Below are positions 21,173-27,956 of a stretch of DNA of 60,849 nt, piece by piece. Position 1 is the stretch's first letter. Every line of letters begins with the position of its first letter. The notes beneath the pieces were generated by a model. That model worked only from the letters and a program-made list of their open reading frames with translations, was not told where the DNA came from and did no database searches. The translations under genes were made by a program, and so were the position numbers. Source of the stretch: an uncultured Oscillospiraceae bacterium (GTDB lineage Bacteria; Bacillota; Clostridia; Oscillospirales; Oscillospiraceae); NCBI GenBank assembly GCA_947581795.1, contig CANPVS010000014.1, positions 1 to 60,849 of the forward strand, in the 5' to 3' direction.

Positions 21173-22021
21173 TCATATGGCAGCGCTCCAGCCTACTGTC
21201 AATTGTTCCTCTTCCAATTGCCTCTCCAAAGCCTGCTCCACCAGCAGGGCCACATTGTCCTCTATGGCCTTCCGGCCGGCCAGGTACAGCCGCCGCAGGC
21301 ACCGGGGGTTTCCCTTCTCCACGGGGACGCTGGCCACGGCGCAGAGGTCCCGGATAGAGCTGGTGACGTAGGTCCTGTCCATGGGGGTCCCCTCCTTCGT
21401 GAGGAACAGGGGGCCGGTGTAGAGCCCGTTCCGGTCCGCATAGGCCAGAAGCTCGTCGCACAGGCACCGGGGCAGATGGATATTTCTCCGGTTTTTTCCC
21501 TCGCCGATGGTCACATACCCCGCCTTCGCGGCCTCCACCGTCACCTTCTCCAGCTCCTGCACCGGCAGGTCCGCACCCGCGAACACCTTCACCAGCAGGT
21601 AGACCTTCTCCCGGCCCAGCAGCTTCGCGACTTGCAGCAGATGCCGATACTCGCCCCGGTTCATCTCCGGCTGGGGCTTCTCCTCCGCCCGGAGGGTGTC
21701 CCGGAACTGGTATTCCCGGTGGCCCATGTAGGCAACATAGTTGTTGGCCACGGAGATATAGAGGTTCGCCGTCCTCGGCGCGCAGCCGTTGGCAAGCAGC
21801 GCCTCCCGGCACTGTTCCAGCGTGTCCCGACGGATCATGCCGTCCTCGGGCAGGACCTCGGCCAGCCGCTCCAGGCTCCGGCGGTACCGCTCCACGGTCT
21901 CCGGGGCCCGGCCTTTCACCAAAAGGCTTCCCAAAAAGCCCTCTATGTCTCCCGCCGTCATGGAGACGCCTGTATCATGTTGTCCCAGCCTCCCGGCCGG
22001 TCTGACGTTTATCGCATCCAT
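21173..22021 (-). CDS. Tyrosine-recombinase-like protein with degenerate active site
   Basis: 282 aa, intact frame with RBS AGAGGAG. An N-terminal SAM-like core-binding domain (about 20-105) and a catalytic-domain fold (about 118-280) align with the intact recombinase at 26365. The catalytic set is lost: the first Arg (TGVRVSE in the intact protein) is Pro153 in DLPVQE; the HxxRH box reads RCLRR (240-244), keeping only the second Arg; the GHSS box and the nucleophile Tyr are absent. The C-terminus ends instead in a Glu/Leu-rich helix and EEQLTVGW. The gene is full length, so it may serve as a DNA-binding accessory rather than being debris. Confidence 0.8.
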   Translation of the reverse strand: MDAINVRPAGRLGQHDTGVSMTAGDIEGFLGSLLVKGRAPETVERYRRSLERLAEVLPEDGMIRRDTLEQCREALLANGCAPRTANLYISVANNYVAYMGHREYQFRDTLRAEEKPQPEMNRGEYRHLLQVAKLLGREKVYLLVKVFAGADLPVQELEKVTVEAAKAGYVTIGEGKNRRNIHLPRCLCDELLAYADRNGLYTGPLFLTKEGTPMDRTYVTSSIRDLCAVASVPVEKGNPRCLRRLYLAGRKAIEDNVALLVEQALERQLEEEQLTVGWSAAI

Positions 22022-22055
22022 AGTCGTCTCCTCTTAGAAGGCTCCAGCACAACCT

Positions 22056-22312
22056 AACCCCCCTGTGTAAAGGGAGGGGGCAAGTGAATCGCCCACCCCC
22101 AAGCCTCCCCTGTGTAAGGGGGAGGTGCTGAGCGAAGCATCCACCTTATAAGCCCCCCTTGTTAAAGGAGGACGGGCAAATTGCCCCCTCTAAAGCCCCC
22201 CTTGTTAAAGGGGGGTGGCCCGAAGGGCCGGGGGGATTGCAAACCACAATCCCTCAGACTCCGGCTGGCGCCGGAGCCAGCTCCCTTTACACAAGGGAGC
22301 CTTCCATAATGT
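22056..22312. repeat. Composite of type B and related palindromic fragments
   Basis: The space between the degenerate recombinase and the surface-gene terminator is filled by at least four fragments: a CCCTGTGTAAAGGGAGG end, a CCTCCCCTGTGTAAGGGGGAGG end, two GCCCCCCTTGTTAAAGG variants, and a right half with the inner stem CTCCGGC/GCCGGAG ending in CTCCCTTTACACAAGGGAGC. It looks like nested or repeatedly rearranged copies. I see no gene here. Confidence 0.75.
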
Positions 22313-22324
22313 CGATTTTGCAAA

Positions 22325-22351
22325 GGGAGCAGGGCCAGAGACCCTGCTCCC
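22325..22351 (-). terminator. Terminator of the surface-protein gene
   Basis: GGGAGCAGGG, seven-base loop, CCCTGCTCCC: a perfect 10-bp stem followed on the minus strand by TTTGCAAAAT, 40 bp after the surface-gene stop codon. Confidence 0.75.
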
Positions 22352-22389
22352 CTCATTAGGTTGCTATGTTCGGTTTACTCGCTTTTGCC

Positions 22390-25300
22390 TCAGGCAGCGG
22401 GATCGCCCTTGGTGAAGTGGCCGTTGACGAAGTCGCCATAGGCCGCGGTCCAGGTGATCTCACCGAAGTGGCCGCTGTTGCGGTCGGTACGGGCGTAGGC
22501 GTCGCCGGGGATAGCGGGATCATTGATCCAGCCGTTCTTGCTGGTCACCAGCTTGCCCTGCGTACCGCCCTCAGTGCCGGTCTGCAGCATGAACCAAGCG
22601 TTGCCGATCTTGCGGAAGCCGGTCCACATCGCGCCGTCGGGCCCGACGTAGTACCACAGGCCGCCCTTGCCGTAGATCCACTTGCTCTTCTGCAGGACCT
22701 TATCCTTGTAGTAATACCAAGTGCCGTCAGTAGCCTTCACCCAGCCGGTGCCGGAAGCGGGAGCGGCGGGGATGGTGGGCTTGGGGTCGTCGGGCGTGGT
22801 CGCGGGCTTCTTCTCCAGGGCCTTCTCGGCGGCTTCGAGAGCCTTCTGAGCGGCCTCGACGTCAGCCTTGGTGGCGCTGTCGCCCAGAGCCTTCGCGTTG
22901 TCCAGAGCGTCCTTGAAGGTCTTCCAGCTCTCCGCGGTGTAATCGGCTTCCTTGTACTCCTCGGCAGCCTTCACAGCGGCGGCCAGAGCTTCCTTCGCGG
23001 CGGCCAGCTCCTTGGCGGCCTTCGCCTCGTCGGTCATGACCAGCTTGTTGTAAGCCGCGGTCAGCAGCTCAGCGGCGTTCTTCATCTGAGCCTGGGTGGC
23101 CTTCGGGTCAGCCAGGACCTTCTTGGCATTCGCCAGAGCGGTCTCGAAGGGACGCCAGGTGGCCACGGTGTAGTCGGCCTCCTTGCAGGCCTCGGCGGCC
23201 TTGATGGAAGCTTCCAGCTCGGTCTTGTCGATCTCGTCGATGGGGGCCAGAGCCTTGATATCAGCGTCCAGAGTGTCAATGATCTTCTTGATCTCAGACA
23301 GGAACGCGTTCTCGGCGCCCTTCTTATAGATCGCCTCGGCCTCCTTCATGGTGGCCTTCAGCTTGCCGTAGGTGTTGAAGGTGTAGACTGGCGTGCCCTC
23401 GTCCTGGGTCTGGCTGGTCTTGCCAACCAGCTTCTCGGCCTCGGCGATCTTCTCAGCCAGAGGCTTCAGATCCGCGGTCTTCTTCTTCAGGTAGCTGCAG
23501 ACCTTGATGATATCGCCGATGCTGTTGACGACGTCGTTGTCGGCCTGGCAGATATTGTTGTGGTTGGCCACGGTGCTGCCGGCGGTCTTGTCGTTCAGCA
23601 GGGTGGTCATGGCGGAGATGGCATCATCGATCAGGTCGAACGCGCCGGCGATCTTCTCCTCCTCGGTGTCGCCTTCCAGGTACTTACCACAGCCGGACCT
23701 GATCTCATAGTCCATGGGATCCAGGGCCTTGGCGGCCTTCAGGATGGACAGGGCGTTCTTGATATAAGTGCCATCGCCTTCCACGGTCGAGCTGGACGCA
23801 TATGTCTCACCGCTGCTCCACTTGCTCAGAGCAAGGATCTTGACGGGGGCCTTGGAGTTTTCCAGGGTCACCCAGTCACCGTCGGGCTCACCGTTGACCA
23901 GGTCGCTGTACTGGAGCACCGCGTAATAGGTGCCGACCTTCAGGGCCGCGTCCTCCGCGGCGGTCAGCTGCCAAGACGCAGTTTTTGACAGGTCAGCAGT
24001 CATTGCACTGACGAGCTTACCGTCTCCATCCACCAGCGCGGCACGGAGTACACGTCCATCCTTCGTCGCATCGGCAAATTTGATAGCAGTCGAAGACGCG
24101 ACATGCAGGTAAATACTAGGCAGAGCCTCTTTGCTGCCGCTCAGCGGGTTAAAGCCGACCAAGGTGTTGGGTGTACGCGTCGTCGGGTACGGGTCGATAG
24201 TCCAGCTCTTCGTCACGACGTAATTAGCGCTAGAGAACTTGCCGTAATTCAGAGACTTCTCCGGCTCTCTCTCGCCGATCGTGAAGGTGATCGAATCGAT
24301 CTCTTCCCACTTTTCGGCGTTGGCGACCGCCGCAGCCTTCCCGGAAGTTATAGCAGAGGGCTGGATGTCCTTGTTGTAATAGTAGTGGATGGTGACCTCG
24401 TCGCCAGCCTGGAACGCAGTGCCAAGGCTGTTCTTAACCGGGAGCGTGAGCTCAGCGATCCACTGCTTCTGGGTGGCAAGGCCATCAGCCTGCCACGCGC
24501 TGCAGTTGAGGGAGATGTTAGTGTCGCCGATCAGGAAGATGTAGGCCGCTGCGGGAGGATCCTCATTCTCCTTGTAGTCATCGGTGCCGGGAGGATTCAT
24601 CACCCACTTATCCGTCGTACCGCGCTTCACATGGTAGGCGATGGCGTACTGATAGCCGTCCACGATCTGGTCGGCGGCGACGCTGCCGGGGAAATAGTCC
24701 ACGGCAAACTCCACTGTCACATTACCCGAATCGGCGGTCTTGGACCAGGTGTCGCTGCCGTCCACGAACTCGATGGTGGGTTCGCCTGCGACCTTGGTGT
24801 ACTGTGCCAGCGTATCAAGGGCATTGTTCACTTCCCACAGGGTCGTGTCAGCCACAAACTTCACGGTGGTGGTGGTCTTGTCGGACAGGAGGGCCTTCAC
24901 CGCGCCGAGATAGCCAGGGACAGTCTTGCTGGTGAACGTATTCCAAGGCTGTTTGGTCGTGTTGTTGATATCCAGGACGAACCGGGTCGTGTTGTAGATA
25001 TTCTCGTCCTGAGGCGCGGCGGCAATGGCAGCCTGGACCTTGGTCAGCTCAGCGTCGCCGGGCTTCCAGGCCGTGGTCTCCAGGACCAGGGCGTCCATAG
25101 CGGCCTTGGTGGCGGCTACGTAGTCGGCGTAGCTGGGCACGGTGGCATCCAGCTTCTCATAGGCCTCCAGCGCATCCTCCAGGGCCTCCAGGTAATTCAT
25201 CTGATAGGCCTTCGTCCAGGCGGTGGTAACGGTCGGATCCTTGGTATCGCTGTTGATCGCCGTAATGGTGCAGCAACTGGCGGCGATCTTCGCGTCGTCA

Positions 25301-26022
25301 TAATGCTTGTGCCAGTTGGCGGTGATCAGGTTCCTCAGGTCCTCTTTCTTGATCACTTCCTTGAGCTCATCCTTGTCAAGGATGTGGTCCACCAGCTCGG
25401 CCTTGCCGTCGGGCAGGAAGGCCTCCAGCTTTTCAGCAATGGCTTCCACGCTGCCGGTATCCACATCACCGACCTTGGAGGCCACGTCGACACCGTCGAT
25501 GCCGTCCAGATAGTACTCGGCGTCAGCCAGCACGCTCAGGAAGTCTTCCTCCTTCGCCTTGTTGCCGGTGGCGTTCACAAAGGGGTCATAGGACTTGGGG
25601 TCCTTGATGTAGTTGGCCAGAGCGTCGCTGAGGGACTTCGGGGTCACCGTGAAGTTCACAGAGCGCAGCTCGCCGGCCTCCACGCCGGCCTTATAGGTGT
25701 TGGCGACCTCGACGTCGTTGTACAGGCGGTAGTGGGCCTCCTTGGTCACGGCGCCCAGCTTCACCAGCAGAGGAACATCATTCTCCTCTTCCTCGACGAC
25801 CAGAGCCGCGGCCGCCTCGGGGGCCTCCACGGCCTCCTCTTCGACTGCGGGCTCCTCAACGACCTCGGCCTCGGGAGCCTCGGGCTCCACAGGGGCCTCG
25901 GGTGCCTGCTCCACGACTTCGGTCACGGTCTCTGCTTCGAACTCGTCAGCCGCAAGGGCCGGGACGCACAGAGACAGAGTCATGACCAGCGCCAGAAGCA
26001 GGCTGAGCATACGTTTTGTCAT
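22390..26022 (-). CDS. Large secreted surface protein with C-terminal cell-wall-binding repeats
   Basis: 1210 aa. Signal peptide MTKRMLSLLLALVMTLSLCVPALAA, then a Glu/Ala/Pro/Val-rich acidic linker (about 26-95). A long region of unknown domains follows (about 100-850). Helical FIVAR-like repeats come next (about 850-1090), with the recurrent pattern CKEADYTVATWRPFETALANA and EYKEADYTAESWKTFKDALDNA. The C-terminus carries choline/glucan-binding-type repeats (WVKATDGTWYYYKD, WIYGKGGLWYYVGPDG, WTGFRKIGNAWF). It is probably a non-covalently wall-bound adhesin or S-layer-like protein. RBS TTAGGAGG. I see no sigma-A promoter facing the gene in the 340 bp upstream; the only strong promoter there faces away inside an apparent invertible segment, so the gene may be off in this assembly. 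Confidence 0.88.
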   Translation of the reverse strand: MTKRMLSLLLALVMTLSLCVPALAADEFEAETVTEVVEQAPEAPVEPEAPEAEVVEEPAVEEEAVEAPEAAAALVVEEEENDVPLLVKLGAVTKEAHYRLYNDVEVANTYKAGVEAGELRSVNFTVTPKSLSDALANYIKDPKSYDPFVNATGNKAKEEDFLSVLADAEYYLDGIDGVDVASKVGDVDTGSVEAIAEKLEAFLPDGKAELVDHILDKDELKEVIKKEDLRNLITANWHKHYDDAKIAASCCTITAINSDTKDPTVTTAWTKAYQMNYLEALEDALEAYEKLDATVPSYADYVAATKAAMDALVLETTAWKPGDAELTKVQAAIAAAPQDENIYNTTRFVLDINNTTKQPWNTFTSKTVPGYLGAVKALLSDKTTTTVKFVADTTLWEVNNALDTLAQYTKVAGEPTIEFVDGSDTWSKTADSGNVTVEFAVDYFPGSVAADQIVDGYQYAIAYHVKRGTTDKWVMNPPGTDDYKENEDPPAAAYIFLIGDTNISLNCSAWQADGLATQKQWIAELTLPVKNSLGTAFQAGDEVTIHYYYNKDIQPSAITSGKAAAVANAEKWEEIDSITFTIGEREPEKSLNYGKFSSANYVVTKSWTIDPYPTTRTPNTLVGFNPLSGSKEALPSIYLHVASSTAIKFADATKDGRVLRAALVDGDGKLVSAMTADLSKTASWQLTAAEDAALKVGTYYAVLQYSDLVNGEPDGDWVTLENSKAPVKILALSKWSSGETYASSSTVEGDGTYIKNALSILKAAKALDPMDYEIRSGCGKYLEGDTEEEKIAGAFDLIDDAISAMTTLLNDKTAGSTVANHNNICQADNDVVNSIGDIIKVCSYLKKKTADLKPLAEKIAEAEKLVGKTSQTQDEGTPVYTFNTYGKLKATMKEAEAIYKKGAENAFLSEIKKIIDTLDADIKALAPIDEIDKTELEASIKAAEACKEADYTVATWRPFETALANAKKVLADPKATQAQMKNAAELLTAAYNKLVMTDEAKAAKELAAAKEALAAAVKAAEEYKEADYTAESWKTFKDALDNAKALGDSATKADVEAAQKALEAAEKALEKKPATTPDDPKPTIPAAPASGTGWVKATDGTWYYYKDKVLQKSKWIYGKGGLWYYVGPDGAMWTGFRKIGNAWFMLQTGTEGGTQGKLVTSKNGWINDPAIPGDAYARTDRNSGHFGEITWTAAYGDFVNGHFTKGDPAA

Positions 26023-26070
26023 TGTCTCTTATCCTCCTAAGATAATTATTTTCGAGCCCCTTTACCCCAC

Positions 26071-26094
26071 ACCACAGACTTCACATTCTGGAGA
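26071..26094. repeat. Left recombination core site (IR-L)
   Basis: Arm ACCACAGAC, 6-bp core TTCACA (26080-26085), arm TTCTGGAGA. Positions 26071-26090 match the reverse complement of 26338-26357 at 19 of 20 bases. The arm-core-arm layout resembles tyrosine-recombinase crossover sites. Confidence 0.75.
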
Positions 26095-26260
26095 ACGCGC
26101 AAGTCCCGAAACAACGGAAAATAAGGCTCCTCACCCAAAGCTTTGAGGGAAAGCGGCCTTTTAGCTGCCAAAAAGAGCGCGCTCACGCCGCCTGTTGCCC
26201 ATATCTCGGGCCACAGGCTGCTGCGCTATGTAAAAAAATCAAGATTTTTTGAAAATCCTC

Positions 26261-26289
26261 TTGCTTTTTTCGGTGTGGGAGGCTATAAT
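26261..26289 (+). promoter_or_regulatory. Strong sigma-A promoter inside the invertible segment
   Basis: TTGCTT (26261-26266), 17-bp spacer, TATAAT (26284-26289). An A/T-tract palindrome just upstream (26232-26250) could act as an UP element. CGGTGT (26271-26276) and ACACCG flank the -10 box and may form an operator. No plus-strand gene lies downstream before the terminator at 26334. Confidence 0.8.
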
Positions 26290-26295
26290 CAACAC

Positions 26296-26363
26296 CGTAA
26301 AGTTGGGCTCAAAGGAAGTTTTTCCTTGCCCGTACCACAGAATGTGAATTCTGTGGTTTTTCT
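26296..26363 (+). ncRNA. Short terminated transcript expected from the rightward promoter
   Basis: About 65 nt. The first hairpin is GGGC (26305-26308) and AAGGAA (26312-26317) pairing with TTCCTT and GCCC (26322-26331). The second is the terminator formed by the right core site, followed by TTTTTCTTTT. It has no open frame worth calling. It may be a by-product of the OFF orientation; after inversion the first hairpin would become part of the surface-gene 5' UTR. Confidence 0.5.
26334..26357. repeat. Right recombination core site (IR-R), doubling as a rightward terminator
   Basis: Arm ACCACAGAA, core TGTGAA (26343-26348, reverse complement of the left core), arm TTCTGTGGT. The two arms pair perfectly and are followed by TTTTTCTTTT on the plus strand, giving a good intrinsic terminator for the promoter at 26261. 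On the minus strand no T-tract follows, so it does not serve the recombinase gene. Confidence 0.75.
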
Positions 26364-26364
26364 T

Positions 26365-27201
26365 TTATAATAGTAAGGGAAGGTGCTCCATCTGGGCCCG
26401 CTGTTCGGAGAAGCTGCGGATCGTGTAGATGCGGGTGGTCTCGATGCTGCTGTGGCCCAGGATGTCGGCCAGGCGCAGGAGGTCTTTATACATTTTATAA
26501 TAGGTACGCGCGAACAAATGGCGGAGATTATGAGGAAATACCTTGGATAACGCCACCCCGGCGCGGGCGGCGAGCTTCTTCATGCTCTTCCAGATGTTGC
26601 TGCGGTCCAGGGGACGGCCCGTTTTGCTCAAAAACACCGGTCCGGACGCGATATTCGTAGTTTTGCAGTATTTGAGCAAGGTTTTGCATAGTTTTCCAGG
26701 CAAAACAATGGTTCTCCGCTTTCCTTTGCATATTATTTCAGCCCTCCCGGCCCGCAGAGATTCGGCGGTTATGGCCTGCACCTCGCTCACACGAACGCCT
26801 GTAGCGGCCATAGTCTCCAGGAGAAGCGCCAGCCGCACATCGCCCTCTTTTCGCGCGGTATTCACCAGTCTTTCATACTCGCTCTTCTTCAGTTCCCGGC
26901 CGGGATCGGCGAAATTCCGGCGCTGGACGCGCAGGAACTTCAATCGCCATTCACGGTATCCACAAAAATCCAGAAACGTATTCACCGCCGCCAGGGCCCC
27001 GTTCACGGTCCCGGCGGCCTTCTTTTGCGCCACCAAACTTTCCTTGAACGCCACCAGCGTGGCCTTCTCCGTGACCTCGCCCCCGGCGAAGGTGAGCAAT
27101 CCGTCTATTGCTTTGGCATACTTCCCCACCGTCGCCGGGCTGTACTCCCGCTCCTTCATCTCTGCCTGAAATAGCCTTTCCGCTTCTCTGTCGATCTTCA
27201 T
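26365..27201 (-). CDS. Tyrosine recombinase (XerC/D-like, probable DNA invertase)
   Basis: 278 aa. N-terminal core-binding domain (about 5-95) and a catalytic domain with the complete active site: Arg137 (TGVRVSE), the beta-hairpin Lys in CKGKRR (159-161), His224 and Arg227 (HNLRH), His250 (LGHSS) and nucleophile Tyr259 (TRIYT). RBS TTAGGAGG. It ends eight bases from the right core site of the invertible segment, so those sites are its most likely substrate. It is related in sequence and length to the degenerate protein at 21173. No phage or conjugation genes accompany it. Confidence 0.92.
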   Translation of the reverse strand: MKIDREAERLFQAEMKEREYSPATVGKYAKAIDGLLTFAGGEVTEKATLVAFKESLVAQKKAAGTVNGALAAVNTFLDFCGYREWRLKFLRVQRRNFADPGRELKKSEYERLVNTARKEGDVRLALLLETMAATGVRVSEVQAITAESLRAGRAEIICKGKRRTIVLPGKLCKTLLKYCKTTNIASGPVFLSKTGRPLDRSNIWKSMKKLAARAGVALSKVFPHNLRHLFARTYYKMYKDLLRLADILGHSSIETTRIYTIRSFSEQRAQMEHLPLLL

Positions 27202-27239
27202 TTGTACTATCCCTCCTAAGAATTATTGGGACACTAGTC

Positions 27240-27352
27240 GGCCCCCTCTGACGAGGGGGCTGTCGGCGCAGCCGACTGGGGGAGAGAAATCGTCTGTCTC
27301 TCCCTCCGTCTCCGGCTCACGCCGGAGCCACCTCCCTCGTCAGAGGGAGGCT
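27240..27352. repeat. Palindromic MITE-like element, type A (full copy)
   Basis: Same ends as the copies at 5712 and 8809, inner stems GGCGCAGCC and CTCCGGC/GCCGGAG. It directly precedes the recombinase gene (start 27201); any recombinase promoter must lie inside it or within the 38 bp between. Confidence 0.88.
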
Positions 27353-27419
27353 TTTCGCCTTCCTCAATGTTGCTGGTCTCCCAATTTACATTTTCCAATA
27401 TTATCGGAGATAATACAAA

Positions 27420-27564
27420 CAGCGCCCCGGGAATAGGGTTCCCACGAAAGCCCAGCGAAGCGGGTTTCGTGGGAAAAAGGAAAAAGGCCCCTGACCGACG
27501 AATGGGGACCCGCTTGTGGGTCCCCATCGTCTTCAGGAGCCTTTTGACGCGCCCCGAGGCGCTG
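27420..27564. repeat. Nested palindromic element next to the broken HEPN/MNT module
   Basis: Outer inverted repeat CAGCGCCCCGGG / CCCCGAGGCGCTG. Inside are two hairpins: 27439-27475 with 11-bp arms TTCCCACGAAA and TTTCGTGGGAA, and 27482-27545 with AAAAGGC...TGA pairing to TCAGGAGCCTTTT and an inner GGGGACCC/GGGTCCCC stem. The first hairpin recurs near 55040 and the left edge recurs at 8946. No coding frame is seen; the 67 bp between this element and the type A repeat shows nothing recognisable. Confidence 0.7.
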
Positions 27565-27592
27565 TTGGTCTCGACTATTCAGTTATCAGCGC

Positions 27593-27676
27593 TCATTTTC
27601 CGCCAACAGAATCGATCTGACCGCAATAGGTCAGGATATGCTCCAAAATATGCAGATCACGCTCTTGCACGTTCAT
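27593..27676 (-). pseudogene. Truncated HEPN-domain toxin (N-terminal 27 residues only)
   Basis: The frame MNVQERDLHILEHILTYC resembles the start of HEPN-domain (DUF86-type) proteins, the toxin partner of MNT nucleotidyltransferases. It overlaps the MNT stop by 20 bp, the usual layout of the pair. It stops after 27 residues, whereas the family has about 110-140, so the RNase active site (RxxxxH) is gone. The nested palindromic element begins about 30 bp beyond the stop. Confidence 0.7.
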
Positions 27677-27956
27677 AGAGCAGCACCTCATCCGGACGGA
27701 TCGTCTCAAGAAACCTCTTATCCATGCCTGACGTGGGGATGAGATCAACAGGCACTTTGAGCGCGTCCTCCAGATCACCGAGCAAATACGCAAATTGCAG
27801 GCCATGGATAGAGCCCTTGTCGATACGCAGGTCAATATCGCTGTCGCTGCGCATATCGCCCCGGGCATAAGAGCCAAACAAGTACACGCGGTCCGCGCCG
27901 TAGCGCCGTGCCAGAGGACTGACTATGGCGCGCAGTTCAGAGATCGTATATGGCAT
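27657..27956 (-). CDS. MNT-type minimal nucleotidyltransferase (antitoxin of a HEPN/MNT module)
   Basis: 99 aa from the ATG at 27956 (RBS AGGAGG; a GTG at 27974 is too far upstream). The nucleotidyltransferase signature GSYARGDMRSDSDIDL gives the GSxxRG motif and the DxD metal ligands. In intact modules MNT proteins neutralise the HEPN RNase, in several cases by adding AMP groups. Here the partner is reduced to a stub, so the protein is an orphan. Its own promoter is predicted at 27989-28016. Confidence 0.85.
   Translation of the reverse strand: MPYTISELRAIVSPLARRYGADRVYLFGSYARGDMRSDSDIDLRIDKGSIHGLQFAYLLGDLEDALKVPVDLIPTSGMDKRFLETIRPDEVLLYERARA

Follow-up and report, generated by a model that had tools for sequence, protein, structure and literature searches.

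A candidate phase-variation cassette with an active-type and a predicted catalytically dead tyrosine recombinase in an uncultured Oscillospiraceae bacterium

Genes and sites at the locus

The window analysed in this study is the whole 60,849-nt stretch of contig CANPVS010000014.1 (GCA_947581795.1), from an uncultured Oscillospiraceae bacterium. The assembly that contains the window consists of 62 contigs with a total of 2.29 Mb, and is 84% complete. We refer to this genome as G000 and to the window's cassette as C14. Two proteins of the cassette are designated by letters: A is the active-type recombinase, and B is the recombinase-like protein encoded behind the surface gene.

The surface protein gene (22390..26022, minus strand) encodes a product of 1210 aa, with a signal peptide recognised by eye, a FIVAR domain and weak C-terminal choline-binding-type repeats. 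In an initial annotation this product was called a wall-binding protein. The label is plausible but draws on sub-threshold matches, as the choline-binding-type repeats of the surface proteins fall below the Pfam cut-off. FIVAR scores above the Pfam cut-off in two of the four surface proteins of the window's genome. These four proteins range from 1130 to 1393 aa and share an overall identity of 38–51%. By alignment column, identity is 98% over the first 50 columns, 20–47% over columns 101–1000 and 52–71% toward the end.

Gene A (26365..27201, minus strand) encodes an active-type tyrosine recombinase of 278 aa that is XerC/D/XerA-like, and lies 7 bp past the nearer recombination site. Its match to the Pfam profile Phage_integrase (8.5e-28) places it in the tyrosine recombinase family. 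Among the NCBIfam profiles XerA-like was the best match (1e-38), yet the scores stay under every curated cut-off listed, with 133.4 of 220 bits for XerA, 111.6 of 335.15 for XerC and 110.8 of 329.6 for XerD, so that A is not assigned to any of these equivalogs. The closest solved sequences are those of XerD, an archaeal Xer-like enzyme and XerA. Residues R137, K159, H224, R227, H250 and Y259, which we take to be the catalytic residues, are invariant in all 16 aligned relatives. This agrees with the initial annotation, which had seen an adjacent recombinase with a full active site. The dN/dS ratios of pairs of A range from 0.09 to 0.34.

Between the surface gene and gene A lies a putatively invertible segment of 287 bp, both sites included (26071..26357), which was captured in the OFF orientation; its invertibility is suggested by OFF and ON cassettes with swapped half-sites, described below. 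The gene-side recombination site (26071..26094) reads ACCACAGAC-TTCACA-TTCTGGAGA and has imperfect arms, of which 5 of 9 positions pair. The recombinase-side site (26334..26357) reads, as its reverse complement, ACCACAGAA-TTCACA-TTCTGTGGT, and its 9-bp arms are perfect. The two inverted sites agree at 19 of the first 20 bases and at 20 of 24 overall, and share the 6-bp core TTCACA. Their positions, core and 19-of-20 match had been given correctly in the initial annotation, but the perfect 9-bp arms that it ascribed to both sites are found only on the recombinase side.

Pairing of such sites is rare by chance, whereas the lone site pattern is not. When one site had to be palindromic at 8 or more of 9 arm positions, with an inverted partner that agreed at 19 or more of 24 bases within at most 1 kb, the window yielded three pairs (26071/26334, 8808/8901 and 27239/27329) and 60 Markov-1 copies of the window yielded none. 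The single-site pattern with three mismatches gave three matches, against a shuffle mean of 1.35, and three or more matches occurred in 14 of 100 shuffles. The layout of sites, promoter and recombinase was found again in paralogues and relatives. In all 17 complete cassettes the core is the same in both sites of a pair, and it varies between many cassettes.

A promoter within the segment, TTGCTT-N17-TATAAT (26261..26289, plus strand), points away from the surface gene and toward the recombinase. Its -10 hexamer is perfect, and its -35 hexamer matches the consensus TTGACA at only 3 of 6 positions. The promoter scan needs 4 of 6 matches per hexamer, and therefore leaves this promoter unlisted. 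The sequence and place of the promoter were as initially annotated; the adjective 'strong', however, does not suit such a -35. Its score of 9 out of 12 consensus positions is equalled by two overlapping plus-strand matches that start at 26342 and 26344. The promoter gains its weight from relatives, which conserve it in either orientation: all 17 complete segments hold a promoter with a TTGCTT -35 and a perfect or near-perfect -10. Upstream of the -35 lies an A/T-rich block (26230..26257, plus strand), which is also found next to the promoter in related segments and may represent an UP element.

The scan of 25800–27700 gave no promoter-like site facing the surface gene. This is in line with the earlier observation that the gene has no visible promoter of its own. 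Relaxed minus-strand matches in 26023–26700 reached a score of 8 out of 12 at best. No promoter was seen for A, and read-through from A could reach the surface gene in the OFF orientation, as only 7 of 12 OFF segments contain a predicted terminator toward the gene (1 of 5 ON).

Together with a T-run, the recombinase-side site forms an intrinsic-terminator-like structure that faces the recombinase gene (26334..26366, plus strand), with a 10-bp stem and a 4-nt loop. Site and T-run are a predicted terminator in this direction in 15 of 17 cassettes (11 of 12 OFF and 4 of 5 ON), the exceptions being L048 and L047. Counted across the entire window region, terminator-like sites are not enriched over shuffled sequence (3 versus a shuffle mean of 2.3). 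At the gene-side site, which the ON transcript would cross, no terminator was predicted.

Smaller repeats were also seen at the locus. An imperfect palindrome within the segment (26190-26221, GCCTG...CAGGC) is flipped between the window and L053 (G014), with the whole segments oriented alike. G+C-rich hairpin-type repeats at 22022-22330, in the gap between the surface gene and B, and at 27220-27360, upstream of the recombinase, resemble small dispersed repeats.

Orientation of the segment in related cassettes

Across the window's own genome the exact site pattern matched the window only, because arms and cores vary among cassettes. A protein search then gave the paralogues, three more recombinases that are 91% identical to A. 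Each of these sister cassettes has a promoter segment, a B gene and a surface gene that starts with nearly the same signal peptide. Three cassettes of the genome, C14, C1 and C41, are in the OFF orientation, and C28 is ON.

Twenty cassettes with A were oriented across eight genomes of the genus, and the reversed segment is present among these paralogues and relatives. Thirteen are OFF (the window, L046, L048, L053, L055, L056, L059, L060, L061, L062, L073, L074 and L083) and seven are ON (L047, L057, L063, L067, L071, L081 and L158). Among the 20, gene A is broken in L067, and the contig holds only the 3' end of A in L071 and L073. Outside this set are two partial OFF cassettes, L084 and L180 (G018), and two ON loci without A, L163 and L165. 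L073, L084 and L180 were oriented by eye. The cassettes in G014:C44, G014:C102 and G008:C62 lie at contig ends and were not oriented.

Viral contigs contained no relatives of A and no exact matches to the site pattern, and no opposite-orientation copy of the locus came from there. Five further matches to the site pattern were inspected (L180 to L184), with G031:C12:3519 left out. L181, L182, L183 and L184 were rejected as chance matches, with no cassette there.

Strand exchange in the core predicts that the outer arms are kept and the inner arms are swapped. Within the window's genome, the inner half-sites of the OFF cassette C1 and the ON cassette C28 are indeed exactly swapped around the same core (TACGCA). 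The same holds for C11 and C4 within G021, which also share a core, and exact swaps of inner half-sites are found between genomes as well (L060 versus L063, and L083 versus L158). These swaps locate the crossover inside the six shared bases or at their edge. No swap is visible between L055 (OFF) and L057 (ON), because their cores differ by one base and the inner arms of L057 are alike. In the broken cassette L067 the two cores are no longer identical.

Comparison of cassettes, rather than one cassette caught switching, thus supports inversion of the segment. The initial annotation had proposed an invertible promoter, captured OFF, with an adjacent tyrosine recombinase and a surface gene under its control. 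ON and OFF paralogues and orthologues with swapped half-sites speak for this proposal. It had overlooked that the genome holds three sister cassettes, that a predicted dead recombinase is encoded behind the surface gene, and that the site also serves as a predicted terminator.

Contig breaks at the sites point indirectly in the same direction. Contig G022:C23 stops exactly at the last base of the core, and its final 77 nt are the first 77 of G022:C5, which starts exactly 77 nt before the end of the core and runs on in the OFF form. G021:C4 also starts exactly 77 nt before the core end, and runs on in the ON form. The 77-mer of G022 was not found again at the three other cassettes of that genome. 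We assume that the NODE_..._length contig names of these assemblies are in the style of SPAdes, and k=77 was deduced from the contig overlap. Since a 24-bp repeat is too short for a graph branch at k=77, the breaks would indicate another continuation in the reads. We read the contig breaks as a graph branch that arose because the sample contained both orientations; the presence of a second strain could give the same graph branch.

The recombinase-like protein B

Gene B (21173..22021, minus strand) lies behind the surface gene and encodes a tyrosine-recombinase homologue of 282 aa. Comparison with domain profiles gave weak matches to N-terminal recombinase domains. In alignments evaluated by eye, all 27 B homologues lack a tyrosine in the column of A-Y259 and a histidine in the columns of H224 and H250. 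The arginine of the R137 column occurs only in L086 and L173, and that of R227 is retained in 25 of the 27. When B is aligned with A, about 16 residues are missing ahead of the second-histidine region. From these alignments B is predicted to be catalytically dead.

The structural model of B (pLDDT 88, pTM 0.59) consists of a core-binding domain followed by a catalytic-type domain, and closes with a long helix (239-276). Comparison of the model with the PDB gave 32 matches at E<=0.001, every one a tyrosine recombinase, and TM-scores to the query ranged from 0.38 to 0.63. Among the matches are XerA, XerD, lambda Int, Tn1549 Int, IntI4, XerH and Brujita Int. According to this model, B keeps the two-domain fold of the tyrosine recombinases. 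In the phylogenetic tree, the B proteins form one clade with 100/100 support, on long branches and apart from all A. Their dN/dS ratios range from 0.10 to 0.40 in seven pairs, close to the range of A, which marks B as a constrained clade.

Every one of the 17 complete cassettes with ACCACAGA-type sites has a B gene. Of these cassettes, L074, L081 and L083 were fetched via B, L158 was fetched after searches with A and with B, and the remaining 13 are the window or cassettes from a DNA search with segment and recombinase. No B was found in the 14 loci with ACATAA-type sites, where contigs or fetched stretches are short for several: less than 1.5 kb follows the recombinase in L051, L147 and L152, and the controlled gene fills most of L050. 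Genome-wide, G000 has four B genes, all in its four cassettes.

Within the genus, B was found in 12 of 35 genomes (E<=1e-45). Among the named genomes with relatives of B, 21 of 23 loci are in metagenome-assembled genomes of uncultured Oscillospiraceae with the sample prefix Lapin, which probably points to a rabbit gut origin; the remaining two are in one Lawsonibacter sp. and one Angelakisella sp.

Outside the genus, but within the family, a different class of A is directly followed by B. No inverted site pair was detected at nine such loci (L161, L162, L164, L168, L169, L171, L172, L176 and L177) by a test that required each of the two sites to pair at 7 of 9 arm positions, and that would miss the window's pair too. 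At L161, L162, L176 and L177 (G001, G027, G031), B-like dead recombinase domains are repeated in tandem directly behind an active-type recombinase, and three of these arrays lie in ORFs of ~520-730 aa.

The stop of the surface gene and the start of B are 63-106 nt apart in 12 of 15 cassettes; in the other three the gap is 217, 251 and, in the window, 368 nt. A strong G+C hairpin was seen by eye in all 15 gaps. In the window, this conserved G+C-rich hairpin lies at 22323..22352 (minus strand) and may serve as a partial terminator or as an mRNA-stabilising element; the terminator scan did not place it among the terminators. In most gaps, ~20-30 nt including a Shine-Dalgarno-like stretch separate the hairpin from the start of B. 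The window's gap, the one gap that was scanned for promoters, contained none. Given the short gaps and the lack of a promoter in the window's gap, the simplest view is that transcription from the inverted promoter continues past a leaky hairpin into B. From its placement, synthesis of B is probably confined to the ON state. Alternatively, B could have a weak, unseen promoter of its own, for which the gaps of 217, 251 and 368 nt could offer room.

Natural variants and other putative switches in the genus

Two species, represented by L163 (G026) and L165 (G030), form a natural loss-of-switch experiment. A and recognisable sites are absent at their locus, the promoter is fixed in the ON orientation, and B still follows the surface gene. 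Between these loci, dN and dS are 0.126 and 0.357 for B, and 0.414 and 0.688 for the surface gene. The retention of B without A, under some though weaker constraint, suggests that B may not act on the inversion. It argues for a role of B beyond inversion in these species, or for an action in trans.

A second type of cassette occurs at L058, L064, L065, L146, L156 and L159. Its recombinase is related, its promoter lies outside the sites, and the sites have the form ACAACGGAATGTNNATTCTGTTGT. An automatic search for a second site at these six loci returned no pair or low-scoring, spurious ones. Inverted ACAACGGAATGTNNATTCTGTTGT sites were nevertheless found ~6.8 kb apart in L146 (G022:C2:37008-43830) and ~7.0 kb apart in L058 (G027:C3:117979-125003). 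In both, two convergent surface genes with identical N-termini lie between the sites, with one promoter and the recombinase outside. Inversion would here swap which surface gene follows the promoter. The six gene-swap recombinases, several of them close to contig ends, had no visible B next to them. Contig ends near the gene-swap sites look like graph branch points: G001:C13 stops 77 nt after the site start, G021:C25 starts 77 nt away, and G031:C60 stops 76 nt from the site.

The window's genome has four more recombinase-linked inverted-site pairs with promoters, L049 (G000:C6), L050 (G000:C2), L051 (G000:C10) and L052 (G000:C32). The genes behind them, as judged by eye, encode a helicase-like protein (C6, with a near copy in C10), a secreted-type protein of 1925 aa and a STAS-like protein. 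All four promoters face the recombinase.

Discussion

Proposed mechanism

The sites, the promoter, the occurrence of both orientations among cassettes and the swap of half-sites can be read off the compared sequences. Taken together, they make it very probable that the locus is a phase-variation cassette, in which A inverts a 287-bp promoter segment that controls the surface gene and B. A would be the inverting enzyme: it would pair both inverted sites, exchange strands in the 6-bp core and flip the segment. In the OFF orientation the promoter would fire toward the recombinase gene, and its transcript would end at the terminator-like recombinase-side site, which would prevent the transcript from running antisense through A. 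The surface gene would then be silent. In the ON orientation the promoter would transcribe across the imperfect gene-side site into the surface gene and onward into gene B, so that B would be made in this state only.

B would then be a dead recombinase that probably still binds DNA. It might occupy the sites, or join A in the synapse, and thereby feed back on the switch. We infer such a feedback from the sequences, in either direction: B could hold the switch ON or drive its return to OFF. In our judgement, the chances are evenly balanced that B acts on the inversion or on the promoter. A more tentative proposal, to which we give somewhat less than an even chance, is that B belongs to a new class of regulators of site-specific inversion, a pseudo-recombinase tied to the ON state that sets dwell time or direction, and possibly silences sister cassettes.

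An alternative explanation is that B does not act on the switch, but serves as an accessory in transcription or replication, persists as a selfish remnant or has another target. This is a serious possibility, although we consider it rather less than an even one. It would account for the persistence of B in L163 and L165, which have lost both A and clear sites, and for the B genes behind a different class of A in other genera, where no inverted sites lie nearby according to the strict test that misses the window's pair. It sits less well with the distribution of B over the cassettes, since B occurs in every complete cassette and in none of the ACATAA-type loci (several of them short), and since the four B genes of G000 are those of its four cassettes. 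The retention of a two-domain recombinase fold likewise argues against it.

The cassettes might also be coordinated, such that one surface protein is expressed at a time and B is a cross-talk factor, but we consider this unlikely. At most one cassette is ON per genome among the 20 oriented cassettes of the eight genomes, for which the exact chance is 0.031 in a post hoc test, devised with the data already seen. The chance becomes 0.086 if two single-cassette genomes are added and 0.029 if the two locked-ON species are added as well, and it is 0.15 for multi-cassette genomes only. Moreover, the promoters of gene-swap cassettes also face a surface gene in six of these genomes. With a chance of 0.029-0.15, depending on the genomes counted, strict one-at-a-time expression is not established.

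In cwpV, the inverted region does not include the promoter, and expression is switched by a terminator (PMC2784873). A similar mechanism at our locus, where a terminator in the OFF orientation would block read-through from a recombinase promoter and the internal promoter would be secondary, is very improbable. Predicted terminators inside the segment that face the gene are found in 7 of 12 OFF and 1 of 5 ON segments, and the -35 of the internal promoter is weak, both of which would fit such a mechanism. However, all 17 complete segments have the promoter inside, and the two A-less species retain the promoter before the gene. There is equally little to recommend a fixed arrangement, in which the recombinase moves or once moved the region, the sites are a relic, the promoter makes a short terminated RNA and the surface gene is read through from the recombinase gene. 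In its favour, the right-hand site is terminator-like for the promoter, and the surface gene and A share one strand. Against it, paralogues and relatives carry the segment in either orientation, with an exchange of half-sites around the core; moreover, 17 of 17 pairs have one and the same core in both sites, though it varies between many cassettes, and the catalytic residues of A are intact.

Comparison with known switches

The initial annotation had compared the inverting promoter with Mpi as a tyrosine recombinase, but we take Mpi to be a serine recombinase. Its other comparison, with CwpV and RecV of Clostridioides difficile, is apt for recombinase-driven inversion at a surface-protein gene but not for promoter inversion, as the cwpV promoter is outside the segment (PMC2784873). 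The two systems share a XerC/D-type recombinase, a surface protein, ON/OFF inversion of a short segment and a site-linked terminator, as far as the available text on cwpV describes them (PMC2784873). In contrast to the window, where the recombinase is adjacent and the promoter inverts, recV is at a separate locus (CD1167 versus CD0514) (PMC2784873).

Tyrosine recombinase-linked inversions in gut Clostridia, with flipping seen in reads, have already been described at survey level (PMC11892184). As a kind, therefore, the switch is not the unreported one that it was initially taken to be. Inverton group 139, with 'invertase group 35', includes Intestinimonas butyriciproducens DSM 26588 and, compared by description, resembles the window in its short inverted repeats, nearby tyrosine-type recombinase and occurrence in Clostridia (PMC11892184). 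The repeats of this group are ~205-230 bp apart in two examples with coordinates, and the available part of its description mentions no dead recombinase partner, whereas the window's cassette has B (PMC11892184).

Two active recombinases, as in the fim switch of E. coli, were not found in the cassette, where B is without catalytic residues. FimB and FimE are neighbours, each of them active, whereas the second protein of the window's cassette is predicted to be dead and sits behind the controlled gene. The available text on fim describes a promoter between inverted repeats and two recombinase-family proteins in the locus, as in the window, and one recombinase that is more expressed in the ON state (PMC2784873). 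In literature titles and abstracts, among the matches listed, we found no catalytically inactive recombinase in an inversion switch, which is not proof of absence, and no match on inversion systems of Oscillospiraceae. To our knowledge, active recombinases drive the invertible promoters described so far, and little is known of what sets the switch bias in systems other than fim.

Gene-swap antigenic switches occur in Mycoplasma (vsa/vpma) and Campylobacter (sap). They are comparable to the cassettes at G022:C2 and G027:C3, and differ from the window's cassette, in which the promoter rather than the genes would invert.

Implications

Recombinase-linked inversion itself is known. The new parts would be the repeated single-gene cassettes with a phase-coupled, apparently dead recombinase, and the gene-swap sister system. 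Twenty natural versions, in both orientations and most of them with an active-type and a dead recombinase, are available together with A-less and gene-swap forms, which would make bias control and coordination directly testable. Our results suggest heavy variation of large surface proteins in uncultured Oscillospiraceae of what is probably the rabbit gut, and this would bear on their interactions with phages and with the immune system.
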